Positions 30,302 through 41,908 of a stretch of 64,000 nucleotides of DNA are shown piece by piece. The translations under genes and the position numbers were made by a program. Under the pieces are notes generated by a model, which saw nothing but the letters and a program-made list of their open reading frames with translations, was not told the origin of the DNA and ran no database searches. This stretch comes from Colwellia sp. (GTDB lineage: Bacteria; Pseudomonadota; Gammaproteobacteria; Enterobacterales; Alteromonadaceae): NCBI RefSeq assembly GCF_013214175.1, contig NZ_JABSPA010000001.1, positions 608,619-672,618 on the forward strand, read 5' to 3'. The first letter of the stretch is position 1, and each line of letters starts with the position of its first letter.

Positions 30302-30305
30302 TTGA

Positions 30306-30515
30306 TACCAATCCTTATCAGAAAATGATCGCTTAGCGAGAATTTTAAGGCAAGGCATTGATTGAAGATAATGCTTATTCAGGAGAATATGCTCAGGATA
30401 ATATGCTCCTGCATTATCTAATAAGGTACTTCCTGTACCTTCTGCATTCTCTAAGATCACCATCCATGTAACGTCCTTGTCAAAATCAATAACGCCGCTA
30501 ATAAGCAGGTTTAAC
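30306..30515. repeat. MITE-like element, same family as 379-537 and 50189-50451
   Basis: It begins TACCAATC, then shares ATCGCTTAGCGAGAATT and GGCAAGGCATTGATTGAAGA with the 50189 element, and its right half shares TTGTCAAAATCAATAACGC. The right boundary is not sharp. The interior holds small internal hairpins. It lies between mgsA and the 3' end of the M20 gene and may supply that gene's stop codon. Confidence 0.75.
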
Positions 30516-31683
30516 AGGCCAATACGCGAGAATTTATATGTTTTATTTTTATTTTTTCTAGCGGTACTTGCCCATTGAAATAGGCAAGTACTTTAGTTAC
30601 GTCATTTATCCTATCAGCAAAACTTTTTTTATTCGCACGTTCATTAATGGTGTGATCGCCATCGCCAAAGGGACCGAAACCATCTAGTGTTGGTACACCC
30701 ATAGCCGATATTGTATTTGCATCACTAACACCGCCACGCTTTTCCAGTTTAAGTGGCCGGTCAATAATCGCTTCAATTTTCTGAATTAGCAACACTTGCT
30801 GTTTGTTGGTTTGCATAATGTCTCGTTGTAATCCACCGGAGAAGGACGACTTTATGCCGTTAATATTTTGCGTGGTAGCAATGCGTTCAATTGCAGTCAA
30901 TACACGATTTTTTTCAGTATTGTTAGTGAATCTTGCTTCAACCGTAATGCTCGCCTGCGGTGATATTGTGTTGGCGCCAATGCCACCCGACATCTTGCCT
31001 GCGTTAACTGTGGTACCAAAACTATTACGTGTTAATGCCGTGAGCTCAACAATCATATGTGCAGCTGCTAGGTTAGCGTTAATGCCGTCGCTGTAATGAT
31101 TGCCTGCGTGTGCGGCTTTGCCTTTAATATCGATGTTATAGGTGGCAACACCTTTACGGGCAATAACAACTTCGCCTTGCTCGCCAGCGGCTTCAAAAAC
31201 TAAGCAAAGATCATAATTTCTTGCGATAGACTGGGTTAAATACTTACTATCGTCACTGCCACTTTCTTCATCACTAACCATTAACACATCAATATTGACA
31301 ATATGGCCAGCATCTTTGTGTATCTGTCTTAGTGCGCAAAGTGCGACATAGTTGCCGCCTTTCATATCACAAACACCAGGTCCGTAAATCCATTCTTTGT
31401 CTTCACTGAAGTCTTCAAAAGTGCCTGGTGGAAATACCGTATCAAAATGACCGAGCAGCAGTATTTTCTTGCCATTACTTTTGGCTGATTTGTAGAGGAT
31501 GTGTGCACCAATATGTGTCCGCTCGTGTCGCTCTACGCTAAAGCCTAGCGCTTGCATCCATTGGCTATAAAGCTGACCCACTTTATCTACGCCAACTTTA
31601 TTCTTAGTGTAAGAGTTTATCTCAATGAGTTGTGCTAATTCCGCAAAATCAAAGTTTGATTGAGTGCTTTTAACGTCAGACAT
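30511..31683 (-). CDS. M20 family metallopeptidase (CPG2-like)
   Basis: A 390-residue zinc peptidase of the M20 family, similar to carboxypeptidase G2. Zinc ligands are visible as LLGHFDTVFPPGTF (His, then Asp), GPGVCDMKGGN (Asp) and MVSDEESGSDDS (Glu pair), with a dimerisation domain containing KGKAAHAGNHYSDGINAN. No signal peptide is visible, so it should be cytosolic. It is divergent from the ATP-grasp/M14 operon across a 204-bp shared promoter region, and I infer that it belongs to that system. The last 14 residues may derive from the neighbouring repeat. Confidence 0.9.
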   Translation of the reverse strand: MSDVKSTQSNFDFAELAQLIEINSYTKNKVGVDKVGQLYSQWMQALGFSVERHERTHIGAHILYKSAKSNGKKILLLGHFDTVFPPGTFEDFSEDKEWIYGPGVCDMKGGNYVALCALRQIHKDAGHIVNIDVLMVSDEESGSDDSKYLTQSIARNYDLCLVFEAAGEQGEVVIARKGVATYNIDIKGKAAHAGNHYSDGINANLAAAHMIVELTALTRNSFGTTVNAGKMSGGIGANTISPQASITVEARFTNNTEKNRVLTAIERIATTQNINGIKSSFSGGLQRDIMQTNKQQVLLIQKIEAIIDRPLKLEKRGGVSDANTISAMGVPTLDGFGPFGDGDHTINERANKKSFADRINDVTKVLAYFNGQVPLEKIKIKHINSRVLAC

Positions 31684-31887
31684 GATAATTCCTTTTTATC
31701 TAAATACCCGACTATTGCACTAAAAATATAAGTCATTTTGATTACGTAATTATGAAGCTTTTATTTAAAGTGAGTTTTGTCATATATATGTAACAACGCC
31801 TACCTAGTCTTAACAATGACTGTAAATATATTTAATCAAGCTGTATGGGTTGTTAGCTTATATTCAAGTAATAAGAAGGACTTTATA

Positions 31888-32829
31888 ATGTCAACGTATA
31901 CCGTGGGTATGTGGATGTATAAGAATGGCGGCGGCCATATTATCCAAGATGAAATGATCAGAAAATTAAGAGCACGTGATATTCAGGTGATCCCTGATTT
32001 GAACTTGGCGAATGCGATGGCAACAGCCGGACATATACTATGCAAAAAAGTAGCCATGGAAGAGCTGGACTTGTTTTTTTCTTACAATGCCGGTAAACAA
32101 AGTCAATTTCAAATGTACTTATATCAAATTTTAAACGAGTCGGTGCCGTGCATAAATAACTTCGACTCATTTGCTTTAACCGAAGACAAATTTCGTACCT
32201 CGCATAAACTCACCCAAGCAGGTATTGCCACGCCGGACTATAAAATGTTGAAGCGCGGTGATAAGCGCCAGCTTAAAAAAACCATGAAAGATTGGGGGGG
32301 AAAGCTGATTTACAAACCCATAGACGGTTGGGGAGGAATGGGCATTGTCAAAATAGAAAGTGAATGCTCACTTGATATGTTGTTTCCCTTCTTAGAGCAA
32401 AGCAATCTCCCTTACTTCTACATTGAGAAATACATTAACTACGATATGACAGACTTTCGTATTGACGTGGTTGATGGCCAATATGTTAGTTGTTATGGCA
32501 GACGTGCGCCCAGTGATAGTTGGAAAACCAATGTCACCAGTGGCGGCAGTATTATGTTACGTGAACCTAGCGTAGAAGCGGTTGAAATCGCTATCAAAGC
32601 GGCGGGTATTACCGGTCTAGAAATCGCAGGGGTTGACCTTATTTACGATCTTGAAAAAGAGCAGTATGTCGTGTTAGAGGTCAATGGTATTCCTGCTTTT
32701 TCAACGCCTGAGCAACAGCAGCAAGGACTTGATTTTAATCATCACAAAATTAATAAAATAGTTGAGTTGATTGCACGTAAAGTGACTAAAGAAAACAGCT
32801 TGAATCTACATGTTGTGGGGATGAAATAA
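31888..32829 (+). CDS. RimK-like ATP-grasp ligase
   Basis: A 313-residue ATP-grasp enzyme, first of a three-gene operon. The ATP-lysine region is KLIYKPIDGWGGMGIVKIE, the substrate/ATP strand is TDFRIDVVDGQYVSCYGRR, the loop is NVTSGGS, and the metal ligands are GVDL and LEVNGIPAF (Asp, Glu, Asn all present). Such enzymes join an amino acid to a carboxylate via acyl phosphate. The frame opens earlier (31777), but the ATG at 31888 has AAGAAGGA just upstream and fits the family. The next gene starts in the stop codon. Confidence 0.9.
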   Translation: MSTYTVGMWMYKNGGGHIIQDEMIRKLRARDIQVIPDLNLANAMATAGHILCKKVAMEELDLFFSYNAGKQSQFQMYLYQILNESVPCINNFDSFALTEDKFRTSHKLTQAGIATPDYKMLKRGDKRQLKKTMKDWGGKLIYKPIDGWGGMGIVKIESECSLDMLFPFLEQSNLPYFYIEKYINYDMTDFRIDVVDGQYVSCYGRRAPSDSWKTNVTSGGSIMLREPSVEAVEIAIKAAGITGLEIAGVDLIYDLEKEQYVVLEVNGIPAFSTPEQQQQGLDFNHHKINKIVELIARKVTKENSLNLHVVGMK

Positions 32830-34250
32830 TGAAAACTTCAAATAAATTGCCAAAAATAGGCTTTGTCTATTTAGATCACGTTATGCGTTTCTTTGACCGT
32901 TCAAATTTTAAAGGTTGGCCAGATAAAATCGATGAAGTTGTTTACCATTGGGGTAATGGACAACAACGTTTTATCGATGAAGTTAAGCGTAAAAACATCG
33001 ATGTGCTTATTGGTAATATACCGGCAACGGCATACGAGAGCTTTCGTGATATTAGTCGAGCTTTACCCAACGTGCAGTTTATCCCGTCACTTGATGCACA
33101 GTTTTCCAATAAATCGAAAGAGAATGTCACCCATTTTTGTAAAAAATATAAGCTGCCTATCCCCAATACAGAAGTTTTATACGAACCGGCGGATGCAAGG
33201 CGTTATTTAAAGCAGTGTGATTACCCAAAAATCATTAAAAAATCCTATGGACCGTCAAATTACGGTGGCTATTTTGTCCATAAGGTTGATAGTTTTAAAG
33301 AAGCCGAATTACTGCTGAGCAAGAAAAAATACTACCCAGTTTATGTACAAGAATTTATACCTATGATTGCGGATATTCGAGTGATGCTTATTGGTCATAA
33401 ACCTGTTTGTGCCTTTTGGCGTCGACCGCCAGAAGGTGAATGGTTAACCAATACTAGTCAAGGCGGGGAAATGGATTATCAAAATGTACCGCAACGTGCT
33501 TTAGACATTGCCATCCAAACATCTAAGTCCGCCAATGCTGAGTATTGGGCTTGTGACATTGCCTTAGGTAACGATGGTAAATATCGCATTCTAGAATGTG
33601 CCACAGCCTTTGCTGCTTTTCCTTATATCAGAGACTGGATTGGTCAATATGTGATGTGGCTATTGGCCGCTGACTTGTTTAACAAACCCTATATTCCTTT
33701 ATTAAACTGGCAAGAATTAGGCAAAATAGACAGCGCCTTATTAAGAACAATGCGGCACATATCTTTTTCAGCAACAACAACAACAAGTGTTACTGAAGAC
33801 TGTGGTGATCAATTAGTTCGAAAAAACCAAGATCTGTATCAATTACTGCCCGTTGAACTCAGAGCCTTTGAAGAATGGCCAAGTGAAGTTTGGAACTTTC
33901 AAGATAACTATGTCCGTAATTATATTTTAAACACACACCAGCAAGTAAATAAAATCAAAGCGTTTGGCCTTGAAGAAGCTGAAGTTGAGGTTGAAGGTGA
34001 CAAATACTCGCCTTATACCGAGATTAATGAGACGGAGTTAATTGCCTTTTTTAACTCGGTAAAAGGCATCGGTAGCCAACTTCAGCAATTGATTATCGAA
34101 CAGCTTGGTGTCAGTGAAACGGTTGATGCACTTAATCACAGCCCGCAGCTGCTATTAAAAGTGAAAGGTTTAAAAGAGAAGAAATTACAAAGCATCATAG
34201 ATTGTTGGCAGAAAATGTTTATGCCGCATGAAGATAAAGTGATTAGCTGA
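32829..34250 (+). CDS. ATP-grasp protein with C-terminal helix-hairpin-helix domain
   Basis: 473 residues. The N-terminal two-thirds resembles ATP-grasp (KIIKKSYGPSNYGGYF, PVYVQEFIPMIADIRVML, GHKPVCAFWRRPP), but the metal-ligand motif is ECATAF, not ExN, so the Asn is replaced by Ala. The C-terminal part (about 400-460) reads FFNSVKGIGSQLQQLIIEQL and LLLKVKGLKEKKL, a pair of helix-hairpin-helix motifs as in DNA- or protein-binding modules. It overlaps the first ligase by one base (TAATGA), so translation is coupled. It may be an atypical ligase or a regulatory partner. Unusual fusion. Confidence 0.85.
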   Translation: MKTSNKLPKIGFVYLDHVMRFFDRSNFKGWPDKIDEVVYHWGNGQQRFIDEVKRKNIDVLIGNIPATAYESFRDISRALPNVQFIPSLDAQFSNKSKENVTHFCKKYKLPIPNTEVLYEPADARRYLKQCDYPKIIKKSYGPSNYGGYFVHKVDSFKEAELLLSKKKYYPVYVQEFIPMIADIRVMLIGHKPVCAFWRRPPEGEWLTNTSQGGEMDYQNVPQRALDIAIQTSKSANAEYWACDIALGNDGKYRILECATAFAAFPYIRDWIGQYVMWLLAADLFNKPYIPLLNWQELGKIDSALLRTMRHISFSATTTTSVTEDCGDQLVRKNQDLYQLLPVELRAFEEWPSEVWNFQDNYVRNYILNTHQQVNKIKAFGLEEAEVEVEGDKYSPYTEINETELIAFFNSVKGIGSQLQQLIIEQLGVSETVDALNHSPQLLLKVKGLKEKKLQSIIDCWQKMFMPHEDKVIS

Positions 34251-34269
34251 TATTTAGCCTGGGGAATTA

Positions 34270-36915
34270 ATGATGAAGAAACAATATACCTCTTACCAAG
34301 AAACCATGGCATTTGTTGAGCGCTGCATGGCAGAACATCCACATTTAATTAGGTTACAAACCATAGGCACTACGTGGGAGCAGAGACCTATAGTGTTAGT
34401 GACCATCTCTTTAGATGTAGAGTATGCGCAGAACAAACCCGCTTTACTCTATACTGGGACTATTCATGCGAGAGAATGGATTGGCAATGAGCTGGCGATA
34501 AAGTTTATTGGCTATGTGATTAAAAATTATCGTTTTAATCCGAAGTTAAAGGAGGCATTAACACGCAATACCTTATATATGGTGCCATGTTTAAATCCCG
34601 ATGGCTTTGAATACTCACGTAACCATTTTTCATTTTGGCGAAAAAACCGAAGGGACAATGGCGACGGTACCTTTGGCGTTGATTTAAACCGAAATTTTTC
34701 AGTGAAGTTTCGTCATTCTATGGATACGGACAGTAATATCTATTCTGGACCGCACGCTTTTTCAGAGCCTGAAACCCGTGCCATTAGAGATTTTGTCATA
34801 ACCCATAAAAATATTACCATAGCGCTGGATTATCATTCTCAAGGCAATGTCTTCTTTCCTGCACATAAATTCAATCATGAAAACGAAATTGAAGGCACAG
34901 ATCTTAATGTATTATGTGCCAATATGAACCGTGAAATTTTCAAAGTTACCGGCAGGAAATACGGTATTCACCGCGGAAAACCACCGAGCAATTTAATTCA
35001 CGGCAGCGGTCGAGAGTATTATTATTCTCTGGGTATTTTATCTACCGTTGTTGAAGTGGGTACACGCAATATTCCTGATTATCTGGTTAATATGTCACAG
35101 AGTGTTGATGAGAATATTCCCGCGGTATTGCATGCTTTGTCAGAATCGATAAGCTATTCTGACTTAGCACCAAAGCGTCCAGAGCAATTTTCATTGGTCA
35201 ATATTGACAACAATAGTGCAAGTTTGACTTGGTGTTATCAGAGCGATATGGAAGTTAATTTTGAAATTTATCGTGCCCAGCAGCCTAAATCGCCTTGCTG
35301 TGATGAAACATTAGTAGCGATTACCAGAGATATACAGTTTACCGATGTACAGTTGAAAAGTGGTCAACCTTATTTTTACAATATACGAGCCGTTGATAGA
35401 GTAACCAAAATAAAGTCTGCTTTCTCCCCAGAGCTTAGAGTAAAAACAGAGCTAGCGCATGATGAGTATTCCCGTGAGCTTTTCCCTTCAAATCAAGAGG
35501 TTGGTTATGTTGGCCAATATACCTTAGATAACAACAAAGAGCACTTCGGTCATAACTCTCTCTTTGTTGGCGTCAATAAGCGTAAAGGAATTTGTTATGG
35601 TGTTATTGAGTTTAATCTAAATAATGTGCCCGAAGATGCCATGATAAAATCAGCACGCTTCTCTTTATACCCAATGAACCGCGTAAACGCCAAAGTTGAA
35701 AATTTCGGCGAGTGGACTGTTTCGTTACTTGATGCTGAAGACCTAGATGATGTCACTAATTTTACTCAAATTCACACAGCGACACCAATGCAAACGTTAG
35801 GGCACGCGATTGAATCTGATCAACTTACGCAAGGCATCTGGAGTGAATGGCATTTTAATATTGCTGAGCGTCACCTGCTTAAAAAAGCAATAAAAGCGGG
35901 CAAGGTTATTTTGCGCATTGAAGGACCGCGGAAGTTACCCTTAGGCGCGGATTCACAAATGATGCAGTTTGATATTGGTTATGGAAAGTTTGGTGCCGGC
36001 ATTCACTATCGACCTAATTTGCAGTTGATATATACCCGTACTCCGCAAAAAGTAATATTGTCCCCGATTGCGATAAACACCATAACCACCACCGAGGTTT
36101 ATGAAAATAAATTGAGCTCTGGTTTTGATAAACAAGGCGCGATCATTTACGGGCAGATGGCGTTTACTTTAGCGGATTTACCTGAGGCATATAAAACGGT
36201 CATCACGGATGCCTACCTTATTATGCGCAATAAAACCTCATTAAAAACCAAACGAGATACGCGCTTCACCATAGAGCTTGCTGAATTAAAAGATATCGAT
36301 TTTAACAGCGTGAAGCATCGTAAAAAAAGAGAATTCATTGGTTACGAAGTCAGTAATCAGCAATTAAAGCATAAAGATAGTCACTATTTTATTTTCGATA
36401 GTTATTGTAAGCTCTATTTAGAACAGCTACATCAAGACAACAAACCCTGTTACCTCATTATTAGAGCAACGGCGGCCTCTACAGAATATGATGAAGTGAT
36501 TGAATGGGCAGGAGAGGGTGATGGAGAAAGTCCTCAGTTAGTTATTGAGTACATAGACCGTAGAAAAACCTCGTTACCTGCGCCAACAGAACTGAGTGCA
36601 GAGATTGAAAATGGCATGCTCAAGCTGATGTGGAATAATCCTAAGCATGATGATTTTGTCGGCAGTTTTGTGGTGCGAAATCGTTTTCATCCACCTAAAT
36701 CACCATATGATGGCGTTAAATTGTATGGTGGTCCAGACGATTATACCTTTGATAATTTTGCTAATGCCAATATTGAAAAGTATTATTCGGTGTTCAGTTA
36801 TGATGATATACCTAATTTTTCTGAGCCTATCAGCATTCAATATGTTGCTAAAGAAGGGTTTTCGGTTATTGAGCAAGAATATGAACCACAAGATGAGGAT
36901 GAAGAAATAGATTAA
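34270..36915 (+). CDS. M14 zinc carboxypeptidase with FN3-like and beta-sandwich domains
   Basis: 881 residues. The M14 domain (1-295) has zinc ligands H66, E69 (GTIHAREW) and H189, the substrate-carboxylate site DLNRN (N140, R141), and catalytic E262 (STVVEVGT). Then come an FN3-like domain (about 305-395), two beta-sandwich domains (about 400-590 and 595-775) that may be DNRLRE-like, another FN3-like part (about 780-865) and an acidic tail. There is no signal peptide: it begins MMKKQYTSYQETM, unlike most multidomain M14 proteins. Gap to the ATP-grasp pair is 19 bp. I infer a cytosolic role, hydrolysing the ligases' product. Confidence 0.9.
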   Translation: MMKKQYTSYQETMAFVERCMAEHPHLIRLQTIGTTWEQRPIVLVTISLDVEYAQNKPALLYTGTIHAREWIGNELAIKFIGYVIKNYRFNPKLKEALTRNTLYMVPCLNPDGFEYSRNHFSFWRKNRRDNGDGTFGVDLNRNFSVKFRHSMDTDSNIYSGPHAFSEPETRAIRDFVITHKNITIALDYHSQGNVFFPAHKFNHENEIEGTDLNVLCANMNREIFKVTGRKYGIHRGKPPSNLIHGSGREYYYSLGILSTVVEVGTRNIPDYLVNMSQSVDENIPAVLHALSESISYSDLAPKRPEQFSLVNIDNNSASLTWCYQSDMEVNFEIYRAQQPKSPCCDETLVAITRDIQFTDVQLKSGQPYFYNIRAVDRVTKIKSAFSPELRVKTELAHDEYSRELFPSNQEVGYVGQYTLDNNKEHFGHNSLFVGVNKRKGICYGVIEFNLNNVPEDAMIKSARFSLYPMNRVNAKVENFGEWTVSLLDAEDLDDVTNFTQIHTATPMQTLGHAIESDQLTQGIWSEWHFNIAERHLLKKAIKAGKVILRIEGPRKLPLGADSQMMQFDIGYGKFGAGIHYRPNLQLIYTRTPQKVILSPIAINTITTTEVYENKLSSGFDKQGAIIYGQMAFTLADLPEAYKTVITDAYLIMRNKTSLKTKRDTRFTIELAELKDIDFNSVKHRKKREFIGYEVSNQQLKHKDSHYFIFDSYCKLYLEQLHQDNKPCYLIIRATAASTEYDEVIEWAGEGDGESPQLVIEYIDRRKTSLPAPTELSAEIENGMLKLMWNNPKHDDFVGSFVVRNRFHPPKSPYDGVKLYGGPDDYTFDNFANANIEKYYSVFSYDDIPNFSEPISIQYVAKEGFSVIEQEYEPQDEDEEID

Positions 36916-36984
36916 CAGAGTGTACTAACCATTTAGTCAGAGCTACAATGCTATTGTCGGGCATAGAACTCAAAAGCTATCACT

Positions 36985-37024
36985 AAAAAGGCCTAAGTTA
37001 ATTTTACTTAACTTAGGCCTTTTT
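36985..37024. terminator. Bidirectional terminator M14 / bcp
   Basis: AAAAAGGCCTAAGTTA pairs with TAACTTAGGCCTTTTT, a 16-bp arm, with T-runs on both sides. It lies between the convergent M14 gene and bcp. Confidence 0.92.
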
Positions 37025-37073
37025 ATTTTTACTTAATTGACGACTTTAAAGATTTATTTTCTTACTGATTTAA

Positions 37074-39962: not shown

Positions 39963-40679
39963 TTACAGTTTAGTGAGTATAACATTTGTTGGCACCGCAC
40001 AGACATTATTAATATAACGCTTGGCTATGTCATCTAGATTATTAATTATTTCGTCTTTGCCCAAGATACTGCTATTTACTAATGTCTTGGCTAATCGTTC
40101 AATATTAAAAGCTTGCTGATATTGATGTGCTAACGGCGCGTAAGATAAATGCCAAGGCTCACTGGCAACACCGCCTTGGAAGCTAGCATAAGGGAAATAA
40201 AAGCCAAATTGGTGCGCGTATTTAACCAGCCAAGTTGATAGCTTAGCTAAAGGCCCTTGTGCGCTATATTCCCACGGATCAAGCTGTAGTTGATAATCAT
40301 CAGCGAGTAGGTTTGGCGCGTAAACATCAATGTCACAACCCCAATGGTGGCGACTAGCGCCAGGCAGGGCGGAATAAAGCAAAATACTGTGCGCTAAATC
40401 AAGTGGCGATAAGTTCGCGGGGGAAATTACTTCGCCAGCCATATTCTTAATCGGTGTTTTACCCGAAAATTTATTGTTCCAAAGCAGCAGCTGTCGGTCA
40501 AACGAGCGAAAGCCACTGGCAATTTTCAAGTCAATATCAGCGGCGCTTGCCGCAGCAACTAAAGCTGAAAAAGCAGTTTTCATTTCTTGGTGAATAGCCA
40601 CTCGCTCATTAACATAATACAAGTGTTGCTCGGTTTGACCCAGTATTTGAGCTGAATTGATGTCCTTGCTAGTCGGCAT
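39963..40679 (-). CDS. M15 family D-Ala-D-Ala carboxypeptidase (VanY-like)
   Basis: A 238-residue zinc peptidase that trims peptidoglycan stem peptides in its known family. The zinc/catalytic signature is present: SRHHWGCDIDVYAP and the later EPWHLSYAP. A VanY-type SGFRSFDRQ precedes. No clear signal peptide is visible at the start, so localisation is uncertain. It lies 29 bp downstream of dapE, in one probable operon. Confidence 0.88.
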   Translation of the reverse strand: MPTSKDINSAQILGQTEQHLYYVNERVAIHQEMKTAFSALVAAASAADIDLKIASGFRSFDRQLLLWNNKFSGKTPIKNMAGEVISPANLSPLDLAHSILLYSALPGASRHHWGCDIDVYAPNLLADDYQLQLDPWEYSAQGPLAKLSTWLVKYAHQFGFYFPYASFQGGVASEPWHLSYAPLAHQYQQAFNIERLAKTLVNSSILGKDEIINNLDDIAKRYINNVCAVPTNVILTKL

Positions 40680-40708
40680 GATTAAATGAAACCTTGTCAG
40701 TAAATAAA

Positions 40709-41908
40709 TTAACCATTAATGTTTTTGTGGGTGCATAAAACATTAACCAAGCAGTGATAATAAATATCAACCAGTTGCTCTAAATCGTTACAAGAAACCG
40801 ATTCATTGACTTGATGGATAGTCGCGTTACATGGACCTAGTTCAATCACTTGTGCTCCCGTTGGCGCGATAAAGCGTCCATCTGAAGTACCACCAGCGGT
40901 TGAAAGCTGAGTTTTCTTACCAGTAACCGTGAGTATGGCTTGGCTGACGGCGTTTAAAAAACCGTGCTCTGAGTTTACATGCTTGGTAATAAATGGCTTG
41001 CCATTAAAAGTCCACTTTATCTCATAATCAAGTTGATGTTTGTTCAAAATCGACTCGACTTGCTCCACAATCATTTGGTCGGTTAATTCTGTGCTATAGC
41101 GTAAATTAAATAATGCGGTGAGATGGCCTGGGACAACATTGGTAGCGCCAGTACCGGCATTAATATTTGATAATTGAAAACTAGTCGCAGGGAAATATTC
41201 ATTGCCCTGATCCCATTCAACTAGGCTGAGTTCAGTTAAGGCTGGCATGGCTAAGTGGATTGGATTTCTCACATGTTCAGGGTAGGCAACATGGCCTTGT
41301 TTACCTTTAATGTCGACTTCTGCAGTAATTGAACCACGGCGGCCGTTTTTAACAATATCGCCAACTACATTAGTACTAGAAGGCTCACCGACAATACAAT
41401 AAGTGATTTTTTCATTGCGTGCTTCTAGGGTATCAATAACCCGAGTGGTGCCATTAATAAAGGGACCTTCTTCATCACTGGTAATTAAGTAGGTGATAGC
41501 ACCTTGATGATCTGGGTGGTCTTTAACAAAACGCTCTGTCGCCACTATCATTGCCGCCAAGCTACCTTTCATATCTGCAGCACCACGACCATATAACATA
41601 CCATCGATAATGGTTGGTTCAAATGGCGGCGTATCCCATAACTCAAGGTTACCAGCCGGCACTACATCGGTGTGGCCAGCAAAACAAAAAACTAAGTCAT
41701 TGTCCTTGCACACGCTACTATCGCGACGAGACCAAAGGTTAGTGGTATCAGCAAAGATCATGCTTTCATTATTAAAACCAAGTTTTGCTAAGCGCTCTGC
41801 CATCAATTTTTGGCAACCAACATCTTCTGGGGTGACGGAAGCTCTGGCGATAAGTTCTTTTGCTAACTCGATAACAGCACTTTCATTTTTTTGTTCGGTT
41901 TGACTCAC
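40709..41908 (-). CDS. dapE: Succinyl-diaminopimelate desuccinylase
   Basis: DapE removes succinate from N-succinyl-LL-DAP in the lysine/cell-wall pathway. The M20-type zinc site is visible: [26 protein letters not shown], and the dimerisation motif GKQGHVAYP. Length 399 is slightly above E. coli's 375. It is 56 bp downstream of yffB, the same pair as in E. coli. Confidence 0.96.

Follow-up and report, generated by a model that had tools for sequence, protein, structure and literature searches.

Two ATP-grasp ligases and two metallopeptidases form a conserved four-gene module in Colwellia, a possible glutamylation writer/eraser cassette

Matched tagging with glutamate and removal of the tag are established for tubulin, whose reversible glutamylation by the TTLL/CCP system relies on an ATP-grasp-type ligase and an M14 carboxypeptidase of acidic specificity. 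Among the enzymes that act on tubulin are cytosolic acidic carboxypeptidases (PMC6214572). For ribosomal protein S6, matched tagging and removal are also established: a RimK-like ATP-grasp glutamate ligase is paired with a dedicated glutamate-removing partner, RimB, and a RimBK fusion is known (PMC11957791). Here we describe a module of four genes, encoding two ATP-grasp ligases (G1 and G2), an M14 carboxypeptidase and an M20 metallopeptidase, in a 64,000-nucleotide stretch of Colwellia sp. DNA (assembly GCF_013214175.1, contig NZ_JABSPA010000001.1, positions 608,619 to 672,618), hereafter called the window. These genes form a genuine unit that moves as a whole, and the catalytic residues of their products are conserved. 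We tentatively propose that they constitute a self-contained, horizontally moving cytosolic cassette that writes and erases glutamate tags.

Features of the locus (positions in the window):
30511–31683, minus strand: M20 metallopeptidase, carboxypeptidase G2-like (predicted eraser 2), 390 residues; Pfam M20 and M20_dimer
31684–31887, no strand: divergent intergenic region of 204 base pairs (bp), presumed promoters of M20 and of G1-G2-M14; from the DNA and its open reading frames (ORFs)
31888–32829, plus strand: G1, RimK/ArgX-like ATP-grasp amidoligase (predicted writer 1), 313 residues; RimK Pfam
32829–34250, plus strand: G2, ATP-grasp amidoligase (predicted writer 2), 473 residues, its C-terminal domain optional; RimK Pfam
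34053–34214, plus strand: HhH domain of G2, residues 409–462, an exchangeable or dispensable tail; HHH_5 match below cut-off, helices in the model
34270–36915, plus strand: M14 zinc carboxypeptidase (predicted eraser 1), 881 residues, its long C-terminal part all-beta; Pfam M14
34309–35070, plus strand: catalytic domain of M14, residues 14–267; Pfam and kept residues
35179–35403, plus strand: FN3-like domain of M14, residues 304–378; Pfam and matches of relatives
36984–37025, no strand: 18-bp perfect inverted repeat with a T/A run between M14 and bcp, probable terminator

The start of G1 was taken to be the ATG preceded by AAGAAGGA, and the alternative given by the ORF tool, a TTG at 31777, was judged less likely. 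The original prediction, made from the sequence of this stretch, described divergent genes 204 bp apart, a 1-bp overlap of the ligase genes and a 19-bp gap before M14. This geometry is exact in the DNA, and the shared base pair of G1 and G2 lies in TAATG. The M20, M20_dimer and M14 domains are clear, and both ATP-grasp genes pass the RimK Pfam cut-off. The predicted absence of signal peptides agrees with a crude hydrophobicity scan of the four proteins, in which no N-terminus was strongly hydrophobic (highest 12-residue mean 0.98). The set had also been considered to lack an assigned product: none of the four proteins scores above the cut-off of an NCBIfam model, and no description of the set was recognised in the literature searched, in which subscription papers were thinly covered, so that an earlier mention is possible.

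The module resembles RimK–RimB in combining a putative writer with a predicted glutamate-removing protease and in having a natural fusion, here of the two predicted erasers at one locus. However, RimB is a retropepsin-like aspartic protease unrelated to M14 and M20, which are the eraser candidates of the module; clustering of ORFs of at least 60 residues from 85 loci revealed no fifth common gene. RimK–RimB contains one ligase, whereas the module has two, and these score 53 (G1) and 22 bits (G2) against the 331 of the RimK equivalog model. In comparison with TTLL/CCP, the M14 enzyme described here is CPA/CPB/CPT-like, and there is no tubulin-type carboxypeptidase among the matches listed. The GAK system likewise includes a RimK-like ATP-grasp protein within a conserved gene set, but G1 and G2 reach 60 and 33 bits against its cut-off of 300, and the GAK partner genes are not shared neighbours of the module.

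Conservation and distribution of the module

Scanning of the contigs of named genomes with G2 identified 133 relatives, the best 80 of which were kept. The loci gathered from all sources comprised 132 with a G2 match at a coverage of at least 60%. The complete four-gene set is present at 91 of them besides the window, 90 being distinct by their G2 sequence. The remaining 41, which include L139, are partial; many come from short stretches or from the ends of contigs, and some duplicate loci counted among the 91. The original prediction was to be abandoned if the four genes never occurred together elsewhere, and the 90 distinct loci speak strongly for it. Three arrangements are found among these loci. 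M20 is divergent from the other genes at 78 loci, and M20, G1, G2 and M14 are all co-directional at 11. At the remaining one, L122, M14 and M20 are fused in a single ORF of 1243 residues, which is followed by G1 and G2. This fusion beside both ligases suggests that the proteins act in one pathway and one compartment, and we consider it the strongest argument for that view. The mean pairwise identity of the proteins is 57–67%, and the pairwise distances of the four correlate with r of 0.68–0.85, as computed without a control pair.

The genes are separated at a few loci. G2 occurs without an adjacent M14 at L089, L093, L097 and L108, and it stands alone beside an EF-P gene at L150 and L153. A relative of M14 is encoded elsewhere in each of these six genomes, although two of the matches are partial, one spanning positions 433–863 and the other beginning at a contig end. 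In the genomes of L150 and L153, M14, G1 and M20 sit together, away from G2. By eye, G2 in these two loci (L150:9319–10740 and L153:9000–10418) lies about 30 bp downstream of an ORF read as EF-P and before dnaE. Two small ORFs that look like a toxin–antitoxin pair are located between G1 and G2 at L108:1591–2097. M14 of Shewanella marina is spread over two ORFs (L067:9449–12111), and the genome of Veronia pacifica (G507, contig C12) contains a second, interrupted copy of M14.

The distribution of the module, whose hosts belong to Pseudomonadota and Campylobacterota, is patchy. Of 118 genomes drawn from the family, 6 have a strong match to G2; the tally of 76 is otherwise made up of 70 weak hits to the RimK domain (best E 6.5e-8). 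Strong matches were also found in 5 of 398 genomes from the phylum, and 249 Campylobacterota yielded 23, one of which (G549) is a fragment; the counts include the centre genome. In a sibling of the same genus (G038) the site is empty, with mgsA and bcp 158 bp apart where the window carries the module. In G078, of the same genus, and G039, of the same family, the AI-2E gene lies next to bcp. In another member of the genus, G109, the 20-kb stretch holding the module contains no match to the seven flanking proteins tested, and the bcp matches of this genome are about 0.8 Mb away. A quick tree of M14 (79 rows) placed Shewanella marina within Photobacterium and Veronia within Pseudoalteromonas, divided Colwellia into two groups and did not unite Campylobacterota; some of these rows, including L098, L106, L109 and Veronia, have long branches and their placement is unsure. 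The 2.1-Mb plasmid pDA100 of Photobacterium sp. DA100, a single record, carries G1, G2 and M14 side by side, M20 being outside that search. The guanine–cytosine content of the module (0.40) falls inside the range of the window (0.33–0.42), and its unremarkable composition therefore provides no support for a recent arrival or foreign origin. The spacer between mgsA and the module (30302–30510) contains a 14-bp tandem pair and a segment of 38 bp with 89% identity to the end of a contig in G038, possibly a repeat element at the edge of the insertion.

Ligases, peptidases and their accessory domains

Both ligases match the RimK Pfam model above its cut-off (E 8e-18 for G1 and 1.2e-12 for G2) and, except for one alanine in G2, keep the residues of the RimK-like ATP-grasp amidoligase superfamily. 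Nine ATP-grasp positions of G1 are identical in 108 of 108 relatives, and its best solved relative is ArgX (3vpb, E 8.7e-15). Ten positions of G2 are identical in 112 of 112 relatives. The exception is Ala258 of an E-C-A motif, where G1 has the Asn of E-x-N. G2 is expected to be active despite this alanine because PurK-type enzymes also lack the Asn. The best-scoring curated families for the two ligases were MptN, the RimK family and LysX, all below their cut-offs. The model of G2 is of moderate quality (mean predicted local distance difference test score, pLDDT, 72.7; predicted template modelling score 0.64), and its fold is nearest to ArgX, LysX and RimK; since these matches are close in score and the model is moderate, the rank of ArgX is weak evidence. 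The RimK Pfam domain occurs in four places of the genome, namely G1, G2 and two proteins read by eye as a glutathione synthetase and a carbamoyl-phosphate-synthase-like protein, so that no canonical RimK which the module would duplicate was found there. No viral relative of G2 is encoded in the 74 pattern-matched stretches of viral_contigs. Sixteen matches in phage records, with 38–49% coverage and 24–28% identity, were set aside as general RimK similarity. These records (H2–H17) include the cyanophages S-RIM8, S-RIM12, S-RIM32 and S-CAM8, whose RimK-like genes show distant similarity to G2 and mostly bear the annotation of S6 modification enzymes.

The C-terminal tail of G2 is variable. The HhH domain named in the original prediction scores 22.7 bits in the window protein, below the HHH_5 cut-off of 27, but helices are modelled with confidence at residues 401–464. 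Among 18 aligned G2 proteins, the window included, nine match HHH_5 (E ≤0.01), two HHH_3 and one DUF1643. A DUF1643 end replaces HhH in G2 of Cycloclasticus (L101:8001–9650 and L104:6610–8226), and HhH was not visible by eye at L084, L086, L087, L091, L094, L105, L106, L109 and L114–L116, some of which a frame error in draft sequence could account for. Because the domain is absent or replaced at several loci, the core of the module consists of the two ligases, M14 and M20. The tail of G2 may select a target. In Alteromonas sp. KUL49 (L110:8001–9396), the ligase part and the HhH tail are in different overlapping frames, which represents either a natural split or a sequencing error.

The M14 protein (Pfam E 1.3e-54) is of the CPA/CPB/CPT type by both sequence and fold, the latter being nearest to CPB, CPT and CPA. 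The HxxE...H zinc site, Arg127, the Asn-Arg pair and the catalytic Glu are kept in all covering relatives, the catalytic positions being covered by 117–120 of 122 ORFs. In phmmer alignments, Arg248 falls on the specificity position, occupied by Ile in CPA4 and by Asp in CPB, and it is Arg in all 117 covering relatives. An arginine at this position, residue 255 of bovine CPA, is the mark of a CPO-like pocket, and M14 is predicted to be specific for acidic residues. In vertebrate enzymes Arg255 accompanies acidic specificity, as in CPO, and a frog CPO paralog with Arg255 cut a Glu-Glu substrate and not two others (PMC9925722).

The catalytic domain is followed by beta domains that extend to about residue 860, and this long part is kept in full-length relatives. 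The window protein matches the FN3 domain of the original prediction weakly (E 0.027), but 15 of 17 aligned relatives match it at E ≤0.01, whereas the proposed beta-sandwich, a DNRLRE-like match at residues 421–470, scores 28.5 bits, below its cut-off of 34. The beta part may bind the substrate or a partner.

The best solved relative of M20 is the enzyme carboxypeptidase G2 (E 4.7e-26), and a poly(aspartic acid) hydrolase is also among the matches. In agreement with a carboxypeptidase G2-like enzyme, the residues examined, among them the metal ligands, are kept in the covering relatives, except in one of 114 at H79. The glutamate carboxypeptidase model gives 190 bits against a cut-off of 349. 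Downstream of the module, a VanY-like carboxypeptidase ORF lies beside a DapE-like M20 ORF (39963–41908; names by eye); neither belongs to the module.

Proposed function and alternative explanations

All four proteins have enzymes acting on glutamate among their nearest relatives, and we therefore read the module in terms of glutamate. The following mechanism can be proposed. G1 and G2 would act as ATP-dependent amidoligases: a carboxylate would be activated to the acyl phosphate, and glutamate would be linked to an acceptor whose gene lies outside the module. One ligase might start a chain and the other extend it, or each might make a different linkage. M14 would then take off C-terminal acidic residues one by one, and the carboxypeptidase G2-like M20 would hydrolyse the last or a differently linked glutamyl amide, so that the level of the tag would be set by the writers against the erasers. 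We infer that glutamate is the residue, that labour is divided in this way, that the reaction takes place in the cytosol and that the two pairs of enzymes work in opposing directions. The original prediction of a system that builds and trims a peptide or tag thus holds in that the genes belong together; glutamate is narrower than its wording, and building by ligases and trimming by peptidases are presumed roles. In these terms a writer/eraser cassette may well be what the module encodes, and we put it forward tentatively.

Several points weigh against this proposal. The acceptor is its weakest point, and neither an acceptor nor a product was found. The S6 tails are Glu-rich in all four genomes viewed out of ten, three with the module and one without, and thus do not discriminate for S6 as the acceptor. 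The acidic tail of M14 itself was rejected as an acceptor, as only some lineages have it. The Asn of E-x-N is missing from G2 in all 112 relatives, so that the protein may be inactive or perform other chemistry, and both ligases score far below every equivalog cut-off. The fusion of M14 and M20 is seen at a single locus. Moreover, every locus was found through G2, and a solitary M14, G1 or M20 would have escaped; the data therefore do not show how often the other three genes occur without G2. FN3 and DNRLRE-like domains are more typical of extracellular proteins. The specificity of ATP-grasp and M14/M20 enzymes is hard to infer from sequence. That of M14 enzymes is also set by the shape of the pocket besides residue 255 (PMC9925722), and CPO also takes polar residues (PMC6214572). 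The model of M14 is poor round the active site (pLDDT <50 for residues 122–161 and 236–246).

The ligases could instead make a short acidic peptide or amide, such as a compatible solute, chelator, storage oligomer or cofactor side chain, which the peptidases recycle, with no protein being modified. The osmolyte N-acetylglutaminylglutamine amide is made by a gene trio that also joins an ATP-grasp ligase and a metallopeptidase in a small conserved cluster. G1 matches its synthetase model weakly (E 2.9e-8), at 33 bits against a cut-off of 569, and the partner genes are from other families. Many named hosts of the module are marine, and the proximity of M20 to carboxypeptidase G2 and poly-Asp hydrolase fits small substrates. 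The polyglutamate chain of methylofuran is likewise built by two serial ATP-grasp ligases, MyfA and MyfB; their genes lie in a C1-metabolism cluster for which the portion of the source consulted mentions no M14/M20 pair (PMC8141765), and this comparison is one of descriptions, not sequences. However, no gene for the biosynthesis of a core molecule and no transporter is common to the loci, and the 881-residue M14 with its long conserved beta domains suggests a larger substrate. We regard a small-molecule product as rather unlikely, although it deserves serious consideration. In Photobacterium damselae, RimK, GshB and M20 genes shift strongly with salinity (PMC10308900). We do not claim a link of the module to salt from this species, in which RimK and GshB are on different chromosomes and from which no locus is among the best 80.

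An M20-type hydrolase also belongs to the LysW pathway, in which ArgX/LysX-like ligases load an amino acid on a small carrier protein and the M20 enzyme would free the product. The solved ligase structures nearest to G1 and G2 are ArgX and LysX, and M20 gives a weak match to the model of [LysW]-lysine hydrolase (E 5.2e-13). Such a pathway would call for a small carrier protein encoded with the ligases. When 3363 small ORFs, taken from the gaps and flanks of 90 loci, were clustered, none was shared beyond Pseudoalteromonas in the ten largest clusters. At several co-directional loci (e.g. L145) the genes abut or overlap, and there is therefore no space between them for a hidden carrier gene. As no enzyme for the intermediates is common to the loci and M14 is not known to take part in LysW pathways, this explanation is improbable. 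Among the longer ORFs, the largest extra clusters (24 of 85 loci) reflect Pseudoalteromonas synteny among the loci listed, and one cluster of 19 loci also includes Photobacterium and Vibrio loci at varying distances.

The same search for small ORFs, which sees conserved peptides only, yielded no common precursor beside the ligase, as a cluster maturing a graspetide-like ribosomal peptide with trimming peptidases would require. Although ATP-grasp enzymes mature graspetides, peptidases occur in such clusters and the fold matches of G2 include PsnB, no exporter is shared, and G2 scores 28 bits (cut-off 350) with the ATP-grasp ribosomal peptide maturase model SAV_5884 and 17 bits (cut-off 425) with MvdC; such a role is very improbable. 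An anti-phage or other conflict system, with the ligases or peptidases directed against molecules of an invader, would suit a patchy, mobile and self-contained module with an exchangeable G2 domain, but it is equally hard to credit given that the four proteins have no match in PADLOC at E ≤0.1 (their flanks were not systematically screened for defence genes), that the G2 tail is dispensable and that conservation is high.

Returning to the glutamylation cassette, we speculate that it might be the bacterial equivalent of the glutamylation and deglutamylation of tubulin. The two ATP-grasp ligases would assemble chains of glutamate on one or more proteins of the host, and M14 and M20 would cut these chains back. 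The system would be transferable, and its exchangeable G2 tail would pick the target; the position of G2 beside efp in two genomes hints that the target might belong to the translation machinery. This extended form of the proposal is doubtful. Direct tests are feasible, since the genes are few, their products look soluble, and they occur in easily grown Pseudoalteromonas and Photobacterium. If the proposal is true, a compact mobile cassette of two ligases and two metallo-exopeptidases would represent a third design of glutamate tagging and would provide a function for four protein families that now have generic names only.

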